A stretch of 22,224 nucleotides of DNA, taken from positions 1 through 22,224 of the forward strand of contig PHAM01000030.1 of the NCBI GenBank assembly GCA_002841685.1, read 5' to 3'. Below the pieces are notes generated by a model. It searched no databases, was not told where the DNA came from, and worked only from the letters and a program-made list of their open reading frames with translations. Source of the DNA: Elusimicrobia bacterium HGW-Elusimicrobia-2 (GTDB lineage: Bacteria > CG03). Shown piece after piece: positions 6,523 to 16,070 of this stretch. Both the position numbers and the translations under genes were made by a program. The number at the start of each line of letters is the position of its first letter. Position 1 is the first letter of the stretch.

Positions 6523-6771
6523 ATGAAAGATGATCTAAAAAGACTTTCGGACGACGTAGACAGAGCGGTGAGAGTTATAAAGGCCCTCAAGGCGGAAAAC
6601 GAAAAACTAAACAGCGCCCTGCTCCTTAAGGACGAGCAGATACGCGCTCTGGATTCACAGGGCAGGAACTCCGAGAAAATAGTACGGGATTTTGAAAGGA
6701 TGAAACTGGAAAGGATAAAAATAAAAGACAAGGTCGGTGTGCTGCTTAACGCTCTGGGGGATGTTCAATGA
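6523..6771 (+). CDS. Small coiled-coil protein upstream of ZapA (ZapB-like)
   Basis: This 82-residue, highly charged, almost entirely helical protein has clear heptad patterning from about 5 to 45 (LKRLSDDVDRAVRVIKALK and following) and again at 50-75. It has no signal or membrane segment. Size and character match E. coli ZapB (81 residues), a coiled-coil protein that joins ZapA at the division ring. Its gene overlaps the zapA start by 4 bases (ATGA). A divisome role is inferred from this coupling; low-complexity coiled coils cannot be assigned by sequence alone. It appears to have its own promoter and possibly a leaderless start. Confidence 0.7.
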   Translation: MKDDLKRLSDDVDRAVRVIKALKAENEKLNSALLLKDEQIRALDSQGRNSEKIVRDFERMKLERIKIKDKVGVLLNALGDVQ

Positions 6772-7049
6772 GTACTTCCGTGACCCTTATGGGGAACAAA
6801 CTCAGTATTTCCGACGATGAATTGAGCCCTGAGACGATAAAGGCCGCCGCCGAGATGGCCCAGAAGGAGATGGACGCTCTGCGGCAGGCGCTGGGAATGC
6901 AGGACACGCTGAAACTTGCGGCGCTGACGATGATACAGATAGCCGGGCGTCTTTTGGAACTGGAGAAAAAGGGTTATTCCCGCACGGAGGGGTACAGTAA
7001 GGGTTTGGAAGAGATGGCGAAAAAGTTAGAAGACGAGATAAACGCGTGA
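6768..7049 (+). CDS. zapA: Cell division protein ZapA
   Basis: ZapA binds FtsZ and bundles its filaments at the division site. The 93-residue protein has the family layout: an N-terminal strand region (VTLMGNKLSI), a DELSPETIKAAAEMAQKEMDAL-type helix, and a central hydrophobic helix KLAALTMIQIAGRLLELEKK that leads into a C-terminal coiled coil used for tetramerisation. The start overlaps the upstream coiled-coil gene by 4 bases. The 6S RNA gene follows downstream, and a folate cyclo-ligase gene lies beyond it, the same linkage known from many proteobacteria. That linkage supports an otherwise divergent sequence match. Confidence 0.8.
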   Translation: MSTSVTLMGNKLSISDDELSPETIKAAAEMAQKEMDALRQALGMQDTLKLAALTMIQIAGRLLELEKKGYSRTEGYSKGLEEMAKKLEDEINA

Positions 7050-7110
7050 AAGAGGAAGAGGAGCGAAAACAAGCGCAGTGGCAAACCGGTCGTCCGGAGC
7101 CGTTGTTAAA

Positions 7111-7265
7111 AATATTTCTGCGGCCGTGGTGATGAATGTGATTTTTGAAGGGCTCTAAGAAGAATACGGGATTTTGATGCCGCGGTTCTTGGACCGCGGC
7201 TTAGAAAACCCACTTTGCTGTTCGCAGCCTTCTTCTGATCACATCCACCCGGCCGCGGATGATTT
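7111..7265 (+). ncRNA. ssrS: 6S RNA
   Basis: The spacer after zapA folds into the 6S RNA shape. GCGGCC (7120-7125) pairs with GGCCGC (7251-7256), GTGG (7126-7129) with CCAC (7245-7248) and ATGTGAT (7136-7142) with ATCACAT (7238-7244), forming the closing stem. A central bubble follows. Its 3' side holds a small GCTG-TTCG-CAGC hairpin (7217-7228), as in known 6S RNAs. The apical arm pairs GGGATTTT (7168-7175) with AAAACCC (7205-7211), and GCCGCGGT (7179-7186) with ACCGCGGC (7193-7200). 6S RNA mimics an open promoter and binds sigma-70 RNA polymerase, mainly in slow growth. Its position between zapA and ygfA is a known arrangement. Exact ends are uncertain and no clear own promoter was found, so it may be processed from the zapA transcript. 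Confidence 0.85.
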
Positions 7266-7307
7266 TCGATTTCTCACCGCTATTCATCGCACGATAAGGA
7301 TTTAGGG

Positions 7308-8534
7308 ATGAAAACAAAACAGGGTGATATACAGCCGCTCTCATGGCGGCTGGTGCCGGATTCTATTGACGGTTTCCTCGGACAGGATCATCTTTTTGCC
7401 CCGGGTGCGCCGCTGAGGGAAATGATCATGAAAGGGCGCTTCATGTCCTCACTCCTCTGGGGGCCGCCCGGAACGGGTAAGACTGCTTTTTCCAGGTTTA
7501 TAGCCGGAAAATTAAAATACAAACTGGTTTTTATCAACGCCATAACTTCCGATGTCGCGGGGGTAAGGGAAATTCTTAAAGTCGCGGATTTTGAAAAGTC
7601 CAGCAAAGAGACGCTCCTGGTTGTTGATGAGATAGAGCATTTCAGCCGTTCGCAGCAGAATATTTTTCTGCCCTGCACCGAGAGGGGGGATATAAAACTG
7701 GTGGGGATAAGTTTTGAAAACCCGTATTACCGCATGAACACGGCTCTTCTTTCAAGGCTGAAGGTCTTTGAATTCAAAGCCCTTCCGGCAAAGGACATAG
7801 CGGGGATCCTGGAAAACGCGCTGAAATCGGATAAGGGCTACGGCGGTAAAATAAAAATGAACTCCTCCGTTCAGGATCTGCTCATAAGGGAATCAGCCGG
7901 TGACGCGCGTAAGCTCCTGAACCTGCTGGAGATGCTGGTATGCGGCTGCGAAGGCAAAACAATCACGGAGGAAGCCGCGCGGAAAGCGTTTACCGGGGGC
8001 CGGAAATATGACAAAAACGATCATTATGAGATGATATCGGCTTTTATAAAAAGTGTCAGGGGCTCCGACACCGACGCGGCGCTTTACTGGCTGGCCTGTA
8101 TGCTCAAAGGCGGCGAGGATCCCCGTTTCATAGCAAGGCGGCTCATGATACTCTCGTCGGAAGACATAGGCAACGCCGATCCGGCTGCCCTGACCCTGAC
8201 GGTTTCGGCGATGAAAGCAGTGGAATCGGTGGGTATGCCGGAGGCGCGGATCATTCTCGCTCAGGCCGTCATCTATTGCTCAATGACATCCAAGAGCAAC
8301 GCCTGTTATGAGGCCATTTCAGCGGCTGAGAAGGCGGCTGAAGAGTCCCGCCCCGAGGTGCCGAGACATCTGACGCGCGCCGGGGCGGCGGATTATGTCT
8401 ATCCCCATGATCACGGCGGTTGGGCGGATCAGCAATACAGCGCCGTTAAAAAGAAAATTTATAAAAGCCGTAAGAAGGGCTTTGAGAAGGAGCTTGACAG
8501 GATACATGAAGCTGTCAGAAAAAGAATCGCTTAG
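7308..8534 (+). CDS. rarA: Replication-associated recombination protein A (RarA/MgsA) family AAA+ ATPase
   Basis: RarA acts at stalled replication forks and interacts with SSB and the replisome. The 408-residue protein begins with the typical WRLVPDSIDGFLGQDHL segment. It has Walker A GPPGTGKT (52-59), Walker B VVDEIEHF (105-112), a sensor-1 region ending ENPYYRMN, and the arginine-finger region TALLSRLKVFEF. The C-terminal part contains the tetramerisation domain, with EDPRFIARRLMILSSEDIGNADP and a PHDHGGWADQQY end. RarA usually has DEIHRFNK and GATTENP; here these read DEIEHFSR and GISFENP, so the protein is divergent. AAGGA (7296-7300) precedes the ATG by 7 bases. The last 29 bases overlap the next gene. 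Confidence 0.9.
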   Translation: MKTKQGDIQPLSWRLVPDSIDGFLGQDHLFAPGAPLREMIMKGRFMSSLLWGPPGTGKTAFSRFIAGKLKYKLVFINAITSDVAGVREILKVADFEKSSKETLLVVDEIEHFSRSQQNIFLPCTERGDIKLVGISFENPYYRMNTALLSRLKVFEFKALPAKDIAGILENALKSDKGYGGKIKMNSSVQDLLIRESAGDARKLLNLLEMLVCGCEGKTITEEAARKAFTGGRKYDKNDHYEMISAFIKSVRGSDTDAALYWLACMLKGGEDPRFIARRLMILSSEDIGNADPAALTLTVSAMKAVESVGMPEARIILAQAVIYCSMTSKSNACYEAISAAEKAAEESRPEVPRHLTRAGAADYVYPHDHGGWADQQYSAVKKKIYKSRKKGFEKELDRIHEAVRKRIA

Positions 8535-9093
8535 GGAAAGGGGTCGTCGGATACGCAAGATTTTGCCGGCGAAAGCCTTTTTGAGCGGTCAGATATGTGA
8601 GAGGATAATGGGCTGGGATCTGTTCGTGTCCCCGCGGAGGGTCATGAGTTATTGCGCAATAGACGGCGAAGTCGATCTCGGCGCACTGAACATCGCCGTG
8701 CCCGCCCGCGAACTTTATCTTCCCGCCGTTGTCCCTGATAAGAGCGGTTTAGCGATTGAGCCGCGAAGATTTTTTCAAGGCGCTGTTTGCGTGAAGGGTA
8801 AATTCGGCATAGACGAAGCGCCCGAAGGCGCCCCTGTGATAAAGCCGGAAGAGCTTGATCTCATTCTTGTGCCGGGGATAATGTTCAGTCTGGCGGGCGG
8901 GCGGATAGGTTTCGGACACGGTTATTACGATCGCTTTCTGGCCTCATGTGCCCCAGCGGTGAAAGCCGGCGTGTGTTTTGAGGCCCAGCTCGGAGAAGAT
9001 TTTGAACCGGATAAAGATGATGTGAGCATGGATTTTGTGATCACGGAAAAAAAGATTTACGAGATCGTTAAAAGAAAAGAGGAGGGAAAATGA
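8506..9093 (+). CDS. ygfA: 5-formyltetrahydrofolate cyclo-ligase
   Basis: This enzyme converts 5-formyl-THF to 5,10-methenyl-THF with ATP, returning stored folate to one-carbon metabolism. The chosen ATG gives 195 residues, the usual size; an upstream ATG at 8395 would add 37 basic residues lying wholly inside rarA and is less likely. AAGGAG (8487-8492) lies 13 bases before the ATG. Signature regions are an N-terminal helix with basic residues, a KFGIDEAP segment, and LDLILVPGIMFSLAGGRIGFGHGYYDRF. In that last motif the usual acidic residue after VPG-x-x-F is a Ser. The gene overlaps rarA by 29 bases and rny by 4 bases. Confidence 0.9.
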   Translation: MKLSEKESLRERGRRIRKILPAKAFLSGQICERIMGWDLFVSPRRVMSYCAIDGEVDLGALNIAVPARELYLPAVVPDKSGLAIEPRRFFQGAVCVKGKFGIDEAPEGAPVIKPEELDLILVPGIMFSLAGGRIGFGHGYYDRFLASCAPAVKAGVCFEAQLGEDFEPDKDDVSMDFVITEKKIYEIVKRKEEGK

Positions 9094-10619
9094 ATATTAT
9101 CGCAGCTGTTATAGCAGGTTTTGCCGCGGGCGCGCTGCCCGTTTATCTTATTCACAGGAGCGCCATGGGAAAGAAAGGCGCGGGGATAATCAGAAAAGCC
9201 GAGGAAGAGGCGGCGTTCATACGCGAGAAGGCGCTTCGTGAAAATGAAAGAAAACTTAAAGAGAAAGAAGAAGAGCTTATGAGTAATCAGCGCTCAAGAC
9301 AGAGCGCACTGGATAAAAAAGAAAATGAGCTGTCTTCAAAGGCGCAGGAGATAGAACGCAAGGTCGGTGAATTTGAACAGGAACGGAGAGACGTGGAAAA
9401 CAGCAGAAGAGATTGCGAACGCAAAGAGAAACTGCTGAAGATGAAGGAAGAGGAACTATCCTCCAAGCTCGTGATCCAGAAAGAGCAGCTGCAGAAAGCG
9501 GCGCACATGACGCCGGAAGAAGCGAAAAAAATCCTTGTTTCGTCCATGGAAGACGAGGCGAGAAAAGACGCGCACAAGCTCATAGGCGATATCATCAGGC
9601 AGGCTGAAATAGACGCTTCGGAAAAAGTCAGGCGCATAATAGCCACATCCATACAAAAGGCTGCCACCGACGAGGTGCAGTCTTTGACCACGACCGTCGT
9701 GCAGCTCAAGAACGATGATCTGAAAGGCAGGATCATAGGAAAAGAGGGAAGGAACATAAAAGCGTTTGAGGCCGCCACCGGCGTTGAGCTTATCGTGGAT
9801 GACAGCCCCGGTGTCATCACTTTATCAAGTTTTGACGGTGTGCGCCGCTATGCGGGGGCATTGACGCTGGAAAAATTGATTTCGGACGGCAGGATACATC
9901 CCGGAAGAATAGAGGAGCTCGCCAAAAAATCCCAGGCGGAGGCGGAGATTCATATAAAGGAAACCGGCCGCAAGACGGCGGAACTTCTGGGCGTCAAGGA
10001 CCTGAAAGACAATCTGATTGAAATGCTCGGCCGCATGGAATTCCGTTTTTCCTACGGGCAGAACATCCTTCAGCATTCCATTGAAGTGGCCAGGATAGCG
10101 AAAGCCATGGCCTTTGAGATAGGGGCGAATCCCACGCTGGCCTGCCGCGCCGGATTGCTCCATGACATAGGCAAATCCCTGCCGGGCGAAGTAGACGGCA
10201 GTCACGCCATTCTGGGGGCGGAGTTTCTTGAAAATAACGGTGAGTCGGCAAAAGTCATCAATGCCGTGAAAGCCCATCACGAAGAAGCGCCTTTTGAGAC
10301 TGTTGAGGCCGTGCTGGTCGCCGCTGCCGACGCTTTATCGGCGACGCGTCCCGGAGCGAGGATGGAATCCGTCGAACACTATTTCAAGAGGATACAGAAG
10401 ATAGAAGAGATAGCCATGCTTTTTGAGGGCGTCGAGAGGGCTTACGCGATTTCTGCCGGCCGCGAGGTGCGGGTTATAGTGTGCCCCGAAAAAATTACCG
10501 AGGCTAACGCTCCCGTTGTCGCCAGGGAAATCGCCCAGAAGATAGCGAGGGAAGTGGAGTATCCCGGCCAGCTCAAGGTGTCTCTCATCAGAGAACAGCG
10601 CTGGAACGAGCTGGCATGA
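9090..10619 (+). CDS. rny: Ribonuclease Y
   Basis: RNase Y is a membrane-anchored endoribonuclease that starts mRNA decay. The 509 residues show the full family layout: an N-terminal membrane helix (about 2-22), a long charged coiled coil (about 30-175), a KH domain with GRIIGKEGRN (213-222), an HD domain with HSIEVARIAK, the catalytic HDIGK (H358, D359), AHHEE and VAAADALSATRPGAR, and a C-terminal AYAISAGREVRVIV domain ending in YPGQLKVSLIRE. Nothing is missing. GAGGAGGG precedes the ATG, which overlaps the previous stop. The stop overlaps the next gene in ATGA. This places it with a YmdB-type phosphodiesterase, the same pairing known in Bacillus. Confidence 0.97.
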   Translation: MNIIAAVIAGFAAGALPVYLIHRSAMGKKGAGIIRKAEEEAAFIREKALRENERKLKEKEEELMSNQRSRQSALDKKENELSSKAQEIERKVGEFEQERRDVENSRRDCERKEKLLKMKEEELSSKLVIQKEQLQKAAHMTPEEAKKILVSSMEDEARKDAHKLIGDIIRQAEIDASEKVRRIIATSIQKAATDEVQSLTTTVVQLKNDDLKGRIIGKEGRNIKAFEAATGVELIVDDSPGVITLSSFDGVRRYAGALTLEKLISDGRIHPGRIEELAKKSQAEAEIHIKETGRKTAELLGVKDLKDNLIEMLGRMEFRFSYGQNILQHSIEVARIAKAMAFEIGANPTLACRAGLLHDIGKSLPGEVDGSHAILGAEFLENNGESAKVINAVKAHHEEAPFETVEAVLVAAADALSATRPGARMESVEHYFKRIQKIEEIAMLFEGVERAYAISAGREVRVIVCPEKITEANAPVVAREIAQKIAREVEYPGQLKVSLIREQRWNELA

Positions 10620-14110: not shown

Positions 14111-14145
14111 AAACTCCGCAAAAAATGGTAATACGGAGGAAAAAG

Positions 14146-14730
14146 ATGTTGAACAAAGAGAAATCCGCCTGCGGCGGAAAAAACAAATTTGAGAAAGTGA
14201 CTTTCAGAACGGTGCCTGTCTACATGGCGGTTATAGCGCTGCTTTATTTTGCGGACAAACAGGATATGAACAGGCTGTTCCTCATAACGGGAGCCGTGAT
14301 CGCGGCCATAGGCGAGCTGCTCAGGATATGGGGCTGCGGGCATCTTGTGAAAACCAAAGAGCTGATAATTTCCGGCCCTTACGCGCATTTGAGGCACCCT
14401 CTTTACACGGGCACATATCTTATAACTTTCGGTTTCTGTATGATGGCCGGTATGTGGTGGCTGCTCATTGTCAGCCAGCTGGTTTACGCGCTGTATTATT
14501 ATCCGCGTAAGGAAGTCGTTGAGGGTTTCAGGCTCGCCGCGATCTACGGCGAGGAGTATTACAAATACGCCCGTGCTGTGCCGGCACTCATTCCGTCGCT
14601 GAAACCCTATGGGAAAAGCGATAAAAAATGGTCTTTTAAAAGAGTGGTCAAAAACAGTGAGATAGGCATACTTCTTGCCGTTATAGCGGCCATCGCCGTT
14701 CTTTATCTCAAGTTCACCGGAAAGATTTGA
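14146..14730 (+). CDS. Isoprenylcysteine/phospholipid-type membrane methyltransferase family protein
   Basis: This is a 194-residue inner-membrane protein with several hydrophobic helices (about 15-30, 40-60, 95-118 and 168-186). It carries the ICMT/PEMT-family core: the LLRIWGCGHL helix, then SGPYAHLRHPLYTGTYL, and a C-terminal block with E, FRLAAIYGEEYYKYARAVP and LIPSLKPY. Members use S-adenosylmethionine to methylate lipids or lipid-linked groups; the substrate here is unknown. The ATG at 14146 is chosen because a CGGAGG ribosome binding site ends 6 bases before it; an ATG 21 bases upstream lies before that site. Its stop codon overlaps the TTG start of the kinase-like gene, implying coupling. 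Confidence 0.85.
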   Translation: MLNKEKSACGGKNKFEKVTFRTVPVYMAVIALLYFADKQDMNRLFLITGAVIAAIGELLRIWGCGHLVKTKELIISGPYAHLRHPLYTGTYLITFGFCMMAGMWWLLIVSQLVYALYYYPRKEVVEGFRLAAIYGEEYYKYARAVPALIPSLKPYGKSDKKWSFKRVVKNSEIGILLAVIAAIAVLYLKFTGKI

Positions 14731-15299
14731 ATTTCATAAAAAGTCTGTCTAATCCGTCGTATCATCAGGCGGATGTGTGGCTCGCGGAAGAGCTCGGAAG
14801 AAAATTCGTCCGTAAAGATTTCCGCAAATGGGGCTGGCCGGGCAGATTCCTGCTCGACCGTGAGGCCGCTTTTTACAAAAGGCTCGCCGGGATAAAAGGT
14901 ATTCCCGCGTTTTACGGCTCTCCCGAAAGCGGCGTCATGGACATAGAATATATAGAAGGGAACTCCATAAAAGACAACAGGAATCTGCCGGCGGAGTTTT
15001 TCGATAAATTAGAGAAACTGGTTTCCGCTATGCATGAGAGGGGCGTTCTTTATTTTGACCTGCGGCACAAGAGCAATGTGCTCGTCAGCAATGGCGAGCC
15101 TGTGATAATAGATTTCGCCACCTGTTTTCATATGCCGCCGATGGTGCCTTTCCTGGGATGGGTGGATTCGGAGGCGGTTTTGTTCCTCAAACACAGCGTA
15201 TCGCCGGAGCTTTTGAGCGCGGCGCAACTGCGCCATGTTAAAAAAATGAACCGGCTCTGCAAGCTGTGGTTCTTCAACTGCATTGTCAAAGGGGACTGA
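14727..15299 (+). CDS. Small protein kinase-like / RIO-like phosphotransferase
   Basis: The 190-residue protein shows a reduced kinase fold. It has a basic FVRKDFRK strand that may hold the ATP-binding Lys (about K26-K34), an Glu-containing helix REAAFYKRL (45-53), a hinge-like MDIEYIEGNSI, a catalytic loop YFDLRHKSN (D111, N117) and a metal-binding IIDFA (D129, Phe-Ala in place of Phe-Gly). The His of the usual HxD motif is Tyr-Phe-Asp here. Lipopolysaccharide-core kinases and RIO kinases are similarly minimal. The substrate is unknown; coupling to a membrane methyltransferase points to a lipid or envelope substrate, which is inference. The start is TTG within TTGA, overlapping the previous stop. 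Confidence 0.7.
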   Translation: MNFIKSLSNPSYHQADVWLAEELGRKFVRKDFRKWGWPGRFLLDREAAFYKRLAGIKGIPAFYGSPESGVMDIEYIEGNSIKDNRNLPAEFFDKLEKLVSAMHERGVLYFDLRHKSNVLVSNGEPVIIDFATCFHMPPMVPFLGWVDSEAVLFLKHSVSPELLSAAQLRHVKKMNRLCKLWFFNCIVKGD

Positions 15300-15550: not shown

Positions 15551-15793
15551 ATGTCTAAAGTAATAACGCTAAGGCTTTCGCAGGATGAATACAAAAAAAT
15601 ATCGGCGGCGGCTGATATTGAACGCCGGCCTATTTCGAATTTTATCACAACGAGGGTGCTGACGGATATAGAAGATTCTTATTATGCGGATTCAATTGAG
15701 ATGTCTCAGATCAAATCTGATAAACGATTGTTAGACAGGATTAGGGCAGGGCACAATGACGCGAAAAAGAGAAAAGGAAAATTTGTTGAATAA
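15551..15793 (+). CDS. Ribbon-helix-helix antitoxin of a RelE/ParE-type toxin-antitoxin pair
   Basis: The 80-residue protein opens with a ribbon strand and helix typical of CopG/DUF1778-like antitoxins: VITLRLSQDEYKKISAAADIERRPISNFITTRV (residues 4-36). The first part is the DNA-binding strand MSKVITLRL. The C-terminal half (about 45-80), with DKRLLDRIRAGHNDAKKRKG, would wrap the toxin. It should neutralise the toxin and repress its own promoter. The ATG has a strong AGGGGGG site 3 bases upstream. The toxin gene follows with overlap. The predicted operator units lie directly upstream, which supports autorepression. Confidence 0.85.
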   Translation: MSKVITLRLSQDEYKKISAAADIERRPISNFITTRVLTDIEDSYYADSIEMSQIKSDKRLLDRIRAGHNDAKKRKGKFVE

Positions 15794-16070
15794 ATTCAGA
15801 ATTTTTGAAACAAATCAATTTCTAAAAGACCTTAAACTTGATTTTGGAGGCAGGCAGGAAAAAATAAAAACAAAGCTCAACGGGTACGTTTATCCGCAAT
15901 TAAGGCAAAATCCCTATTTTGGCAGGAATATAAAAAAACTTAGGGCCTATAAGCCCGATACGTGGAGATATAGAATAGGCGATTATAGATTTTTTTATAC
16001 GATAGACAAGCGAGAAAATGTTGTTTCAATGATAGCCTCAGATACCCGCGAAGATTCATATCGAAATTAA
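15786..16070 (+). CDS. RelE/ParE-family toxin
   Basis: The 94-residue protein has the compact RelE/ParE layout: FRIFETNQFLKDL at the start, a basic middle with NIKKLRAYKPDTWRYRIGDYRFFY, and the final VVSMIASDTREDSYRN. The WRYRIGDYRFFYTID block is the family's signature strand pair. RelE members cleave ribosome-bound mRNA and ParE members block gyrase; these cannot be told apart here. The TTG at 15786 is chosen because AAGGA (15774-15778) lies 7 bases upstream and the overlap with the antitoxin is then 8 bases. An ATG at 15756 would add ten basic, unfamily-like residues and has only a weak AGGG site. Confidence 0.85.
   Translation: MNKFRIFETNQFLKDLKLDFGGRQEKIKTKLNGYVYPQLRQNPYFGRNIKKLRAYKPDTWRYRIGDYRFFYTIDKRENVVSMIASDTREDSYRN

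Follow-up and report, generated by a model that had tools for sequence, protein, structure and literature searches.

A divergent 6S RNA gene in the zapA–rarA spacer of an Elusimicrobia bacterium

6S RNA, common in bacteria, resembles an open promoter and ties up RNA polymerase. In beta- and gamma-proteobacteria its gene, ssrS, follows zapB and zapA and is often followed in turn by ygfA; 6S is inconsistently annotated there, conceivably through divergence (PMC7641849). In lactic acid bacteria rarA is the constant neighbour of 6S, and it also lies near 6S-1 of B. subtilis. Divergent 6S RNAs of lactic acid bacteria were found only by synteny-guided, unfiltered searches, and the GG near the pRNA 5' end is reported as conserved beyond this group (PMC8414754). 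A central bubble collapse helix is a feature of B. subtilis-type 6S, with B. subtilis 6S-1 and A. aeolicus 6S treated in PMC8876501. Our literature search found no paper treating 6S RNA in Elusimicrobiota.

We analyzed a stretch of 22,224 nucleotides from Elusimicrobia bacterium HGW-Elusimicrobia-2, referred to below as the window. A preliminary description, made from the sequence alone, had placed a 6S RNA between zapA and a rarA-like gene. We conclude with high confidence that 7112-7265 is the gene of a 6S RNA, the only one found for this bacterium, whose mode of action is most likely that of other 6S RNAs.

Gene neighbourhood and the Rfam search

The spacer and the genes around it were as follows.

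6523 to 6771, plus strand: gene of a small coiled-coil protein, placed where zapB would be (PF06005, E 0.008, under the cut-off; equivalent position in relatives)
6768 to 7049, plus strand: zapA (PF05164, E 4.5e-9)
7050 to 7307: spacer between zapA and rarA
7308 to 8534, plus strand: rarA (mgsA) (PF12002, E 1.1e-50)
8395 to 9093, plus strand: ygfA-type 5-formyltetrahydrofolate cyclo-ligase gene (PF01812, E 1.1e-24; TIGR02727 above cut-off)

The Pfam and TIGRFAM matches bore out the neighbours that had been named, and the genes characteristic of a 6S neighbourhood (zapA, ygfA and rarA) are present at the window locus. The closest named relatives of its RarA are from Elusimicrobia MAGs. The ygfA-type gene begins at the end of rarA, with its real start probably nearer 8531 than 8395, and gives the order zapA-6S-rarA-ygfA. 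The same gene run continues just 3' of ygfA with an RNase Y gene (9090-10619); to regard RNase Y as the processing enzyme of a 6S precursor would be speculation.

Farther along the window, a small ribbon-helix-helix-like gene (DUF6290, just over cut-off) overlaps the ParE-type toxin gene that follows it (PF05016, over cut-off); the two occupy 15551-16070, just upstream of the rpsP-rimM-trmD-rplS operon. This pair is probably a type II toxin-antitoxin system. A small kinase-like protein (14727-15299; WaaY match over cut-off, protein-kinase match weak) is encoded next to a membrane protein gene (14125-14730).

The search with the Rfam 6S covariance model (RF00013) that the preliminary description had proposed gave no significant match over 7111-7265, an outcome that under the condition set there would, on its own, refute the 6S reading. 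There was no match in the window at the gathering score, and none in the spacer even at E 10; nothing was detected with this model in the whole genome of the bacterium or at the related loci of its family. We searched 16 Elusimicrobiota genomes with RF00013, 7 of the window's family and nine outside it. Matches were seen in 0/7 genomes of the family, while each of the outside genomes gave exactly one (9/9; 38.8-54.2 bits, five above cut-off). The gene order at all nine positive loci was pheT–zapB-like–zapA–6S–rarA, with 6S on the same strand, so the 6S of this phylum resides in the zapA–rarA spacer. RarA does sit between the RNA and ygfA, as had been described, but the arrangement is no oddity: rarA lies directly 3' of 6S throughout the phylum sample. 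In rarA neighbourhoods of Bacillota, Chloroflexi and Leptospiraceae we detected no 6S at the gathering score, and these loci carry no weight in the argument.

Within the window's family, a conserved RNA was found in the zapA–rarA spacer of 6/7 genomes, from three genera. The seventh genome (G005) has a contig end within pheT and gave no rarA match, therefore the locus is probably unassembled. Since relatives carry 6S in the same spacer, and since bridging models and compensatory changes were found as given below, we consider the silence of RF00013 a false negative. It was not counted as exclusion, because a search threshold is not a biological criterion.

Homology, fold and compensatory changes

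We obtained a covariance model (R1) from six Rfam-positive relatives, with zero sequences of the window's family, and ran it unfiltered over the window. The best place was 7112-7265 (30.0 bits, E 1.1e-5), and the runner-up scored 10.4 bits. With R1 the six loci of the family were all recovered (16.5-30.0 bits), as were, with the expected ends, three Rfam-positive loci that had been held out, L039, L045 and L046 (53.7-115.3 bits; 53.7 bits for L039, genome G007). All R1 matches at E up to 0.3 were in the zapA–rarA spacer. The reciprocal model (R2), made from family sequences only, matched the window at 7111-7266 and found the L039 6S with identical ends (46.3 bits, E 1.2e-9). L039, which belongs to the same class as the window's family and scored 54.2 bits with RF00013, is a bridge between this family and recognised 6S. 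For the other eight relatives R2 indicated the right place weakly (10.6-17.3 bits, best unrelated place 10.1). In each family genome it pointed to one place only, and in two of them both strands responded. The E-values of these short-calibrated models are rough, and we put the weight on score gaps. Homology to recognised 6S was found both by R1 in the window and by R2 to L039, and the blocks common to the family and the relatives were CTGCGG, GGGATTCC/GGGAATCC, ACCCAC/ACCAC and a 3' GCGG.

The folding energy of the spacer RNA was -73.6 kcal/mol, compared with a shuffled mean of -51.9 (z -5.1; 0/200 shuffles as good). The 6S-like shape that had been described, with a long closing stem, a central bubble and an apical arm, was indeed found at these coordinates. 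The length of the candidate, approximately 154 nt, fits the about 150-200 nt of a 6S rod. Its parts are listed below.

7112 to 7265, plus strand: 6S RNA gene (ssrS), approximate extent (R1 match, R2 match 7111-7266, fold, synteny)
7117 to 7143, plus strand: closing stem P1, 5' strand (consensus fold, compensatory changes)
7149 to 7154, plus strand: inner helix P2, 5' strand (AGGGCT), base of the central bubble (6 pairs, one changed on both sides)
7155 to 7167, plus strand: central bubble, 5' strand (alignment with the GAGCCUACA block of relatives)
7158 to 7164, plus strand: distal 5' bubble strand AGAAGAA (predicted alternative helix with 7230-7236 while the pRNA template is in use; constrained folding)
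7168 to 7175, plus strand: lower part of the apical arm, 5' strand (GGGATTTT in the window, GGGAATCC in relatives; alignment, consensus fold)
7179 to 7200, plus strand: apical hairpin, 9 bp, CTTG loop (compensatory change in 4/9 pairs)
7204 to 7211, plus strand: lower part of the apical arm, 3' strand (GAAAACCC in the window, GGACAACC in relatives; alignment, consensus fold)
7217 to 7228, plus strand: small TTCG hairpin on the 3' bubble side (family alignment; not conserved across the family)
7226 to 7231, plus strand: inner helix P2, 3' strand (AGCCTT) (consensus fold, compensatory changes)
7230 to 7236, plus strand: TTCTTCT, predicted collapse-helix partner, overlapping the P2 3' strand and extending past it (constrained folding, shuffle test)
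7237 to 7259, plus strand: closing stem P1, 3' strand (consensus fold, compensatory changes)

Two details of the described shape call for comment. The apical stem has 9 bp (7179-7187 with 7192-7200) and not 8 bp. The TTCG hairpin occurs in the window as well as in the two relatives closest to it; L004 has a degraded form and L005 and L006 lack it, therefore it is not a conserved part.

We further analyzed six family sequences in the consensus structure. Standard pairs occupied 96.7% of cells, and 11 pairs were changed on both sides (1/500 shuffles as high). The covariation score was above all 500 shuffles, and when partners were slid there were three such pairs at most. As the family set is limited to six sequences, of which two are nearly identical, and the shuffles keep relatedness, this support is good, not overwhelming. 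The architecture recurred in six independent relatives, where helix P2 reads TGAGC/GCTCA, and by alignment the AGGGCT strand of the window corresponds to the TGAGC strand of these canonical relatives. The compensatory changes in related genomes on which the preliminary description had made its reading depend were thus present, and together with the nine same-spacer Rfam-positive relatives and R1/R2 they support the 6S identity of the spacer RNA. We observed homology to 6S, a 6S position, a conserved structure and, by the family model, a single copy.

Departures of the family and alternative readings

In relatives the template GAGCC(U/A)ACA would give the pRNA GUAGGCUCAA or GUUGGCUCC, with GG near the 5' end, while the family template GGGCUCUAAG or similar would give AGAGCCCUUC or similar, without GG (starts inferred by alignment in both cases). 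The putative pRNA start of the window is near T7156, in the 5' bubble strand. GG at pRNA positions 4/5 or 5/6 was not found in the family; this motif is common, not strictly defining.

The 3' end differed as well. In 9/9 relatives the closing stem continues into a T-rich tract before rarA, and since it runs straight into this tract it may act as an intrinsic terminator. At these loci (L039-L047) the tract precedes the rarA start by a few to some tens of bases. It was missing in 6/6 family members with the locus, so their 3' end would probably come from processing or Rho. Concerning the 5' end, a promoter scan of 6900-7400 revealed no sigma-70-like promoter and inspection by eye gave no convincing conserved promoter upstream, which agrees with the earlier remark that no strong own promoter was visible. 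In L040, L045 and L046 the TAA opening the matched RNA completes the zapA stop codon, therefore at these loci a promoter of its own within the spacer is not possible for the RNA start. Either co-transcription with zapA followed by processing or a promoter inside zapA is possible.

When the 14-nt putative template was constrained to be unpaired, 6/6 family members paired AAGAAG of the 5' bubble with the P2 3' strand. The predicted alternative helix has 7-9 bp, and bubble-strand shuffles were as good in 0.3-2% per sequence (about 2% in the window), in tests that are not mutually independent between sequences. By the same measure relatives reached 5 bp at most, in a comparison that leaves out L043. 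Low-complexity purine/pyrimidine tracts could produce such a helix without selection. It is conceivable, if on balance doubtful, that the family has a reshaped 6S. In this reading another motif would have taken the place of the ancestral one in the pRNA template, a 7-9 bp collapse helix would have been gained, and release would follow a B. subtilis-like refolding absent from sister families.

Several alternatives to 6S were weighed. The RNA shares its strand with rarA and sits just ahead of it, and in L006 rarA begins right after it, as would be expected of a cis-acting leader, a riboswitch or attenuator whose folding within the mRNA would control rarA. However, the RNA at the same position in nine relatives is called 6S by Rfam, and there it ends in a T-rich tract before rarA, hence it looks like a separate transcript. 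No Rfam leader matched the spacer up to E 10, and to our knowledge a rod with a central bubble is not a form taken by leaders. We judge a leader very improbable. Throughout the family the GG motif and the U-tract are gone, and RF00013 fails to recognise the RNA any longer, as would fit a former 6S that has decayed or been repurposed and no longer serves as a pRNA template after GG loss. Against this, the central part is strongly conserved in the family, with CTCTAAGAAG invariant across six sequences, and the conserved bubble is the very site of polymerase and pRNA action. Conservation of the center and stems kept by compensatory change indicate an RNA under selection, and we consider decay unlikely, though less so than a leader.

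Two further readings have next to no weight. Intergenic inverted repeats are common, and a chance hairpin, terminator or repeat without RNA function could in principle stand here, but the z of -5.1, the compensatory changes, the conservation over three genera and six genomes and the R1/R2 homology speak strongly against it. The spacer does contain short plus-strand frames (26-43 aa), so a small protein was considered and rejected: the frames are broken by single-base indels between relatives in the 3' half of the RNA, and changes follow pairing. We regard both as negligible and retain the 6S reading.

Proposed action and comparison with known systems

By analogy with described 6S RNAs, we infer that the 7112-7265 RNA binds RNA polymerase, directs pRNA synthesis and is released. 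The rod with its central bubble would mimic an open promoter, RNA polymerase with the housekeeping sigma would be occupied under nutrient shortage, and release would follow once polymerase uses the 5' bubble strand as template for a short pRNA. An RpoD-like sigma is encoded in the genome (323 bits, which narrowly misses the curated cut-off of 354). In this family pRNA synthesis may in addition open P2, and the freed P2 3' strand could then pair with AAGAAG of the 5' bubble and aid release.

Compared with the other Elusimicrobiota 6S RNAs (RF00013), the RNA of the window shares the zapA–rarA spacer, the length, the rod with bubble and the blocks GGGA(A/T)TCC and ACC(C)AC. The family differs in being below RF00013 detection, in carrying the template block GGGCUCUAA where relatives have GAGCCUACA, with loss of the pRNA GG, in having no 3' U-tract, and in the further pairing that the 5' bubble strand could form with P2. 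It is an ordinary RNA of known kind, divergent enough for the standard model to miss. In this clade an apparently missing 6S is an annotation blind spot, and a same-phylum model combined with synteny recovers the RNA. The changed template and bubble make the family a natural comparison for what polymerase needs of 6S and for the evolution of release helices.

B. subtilis 6S-1 shares with the window the collapse helix of the central bubble, formed by the distal part of the 5' bubble strand with the 3' strand of P2, which in our case is only a prediction; it also has a small hairpin in the 3' bubble strand, present in the window but not conserved in its family (PMC8876501). Around E. coli ssrS, in the order zapB-zapA-ssrS-ygfA, zapA is upstream and ygfA downstream on the same strand, as here, whereas the window has rarA between the RNA and ygfA (PMC7641849). 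In lactic acid bacteria rarA is likewise a neighbour, but it lies upstream of 6S with uspA downstream, while here rarA is downstream (PMC8414754). The order zapA-6S-rarA-ygfA combines the proteobacterial arrangement with that of lactic acid bacteria.
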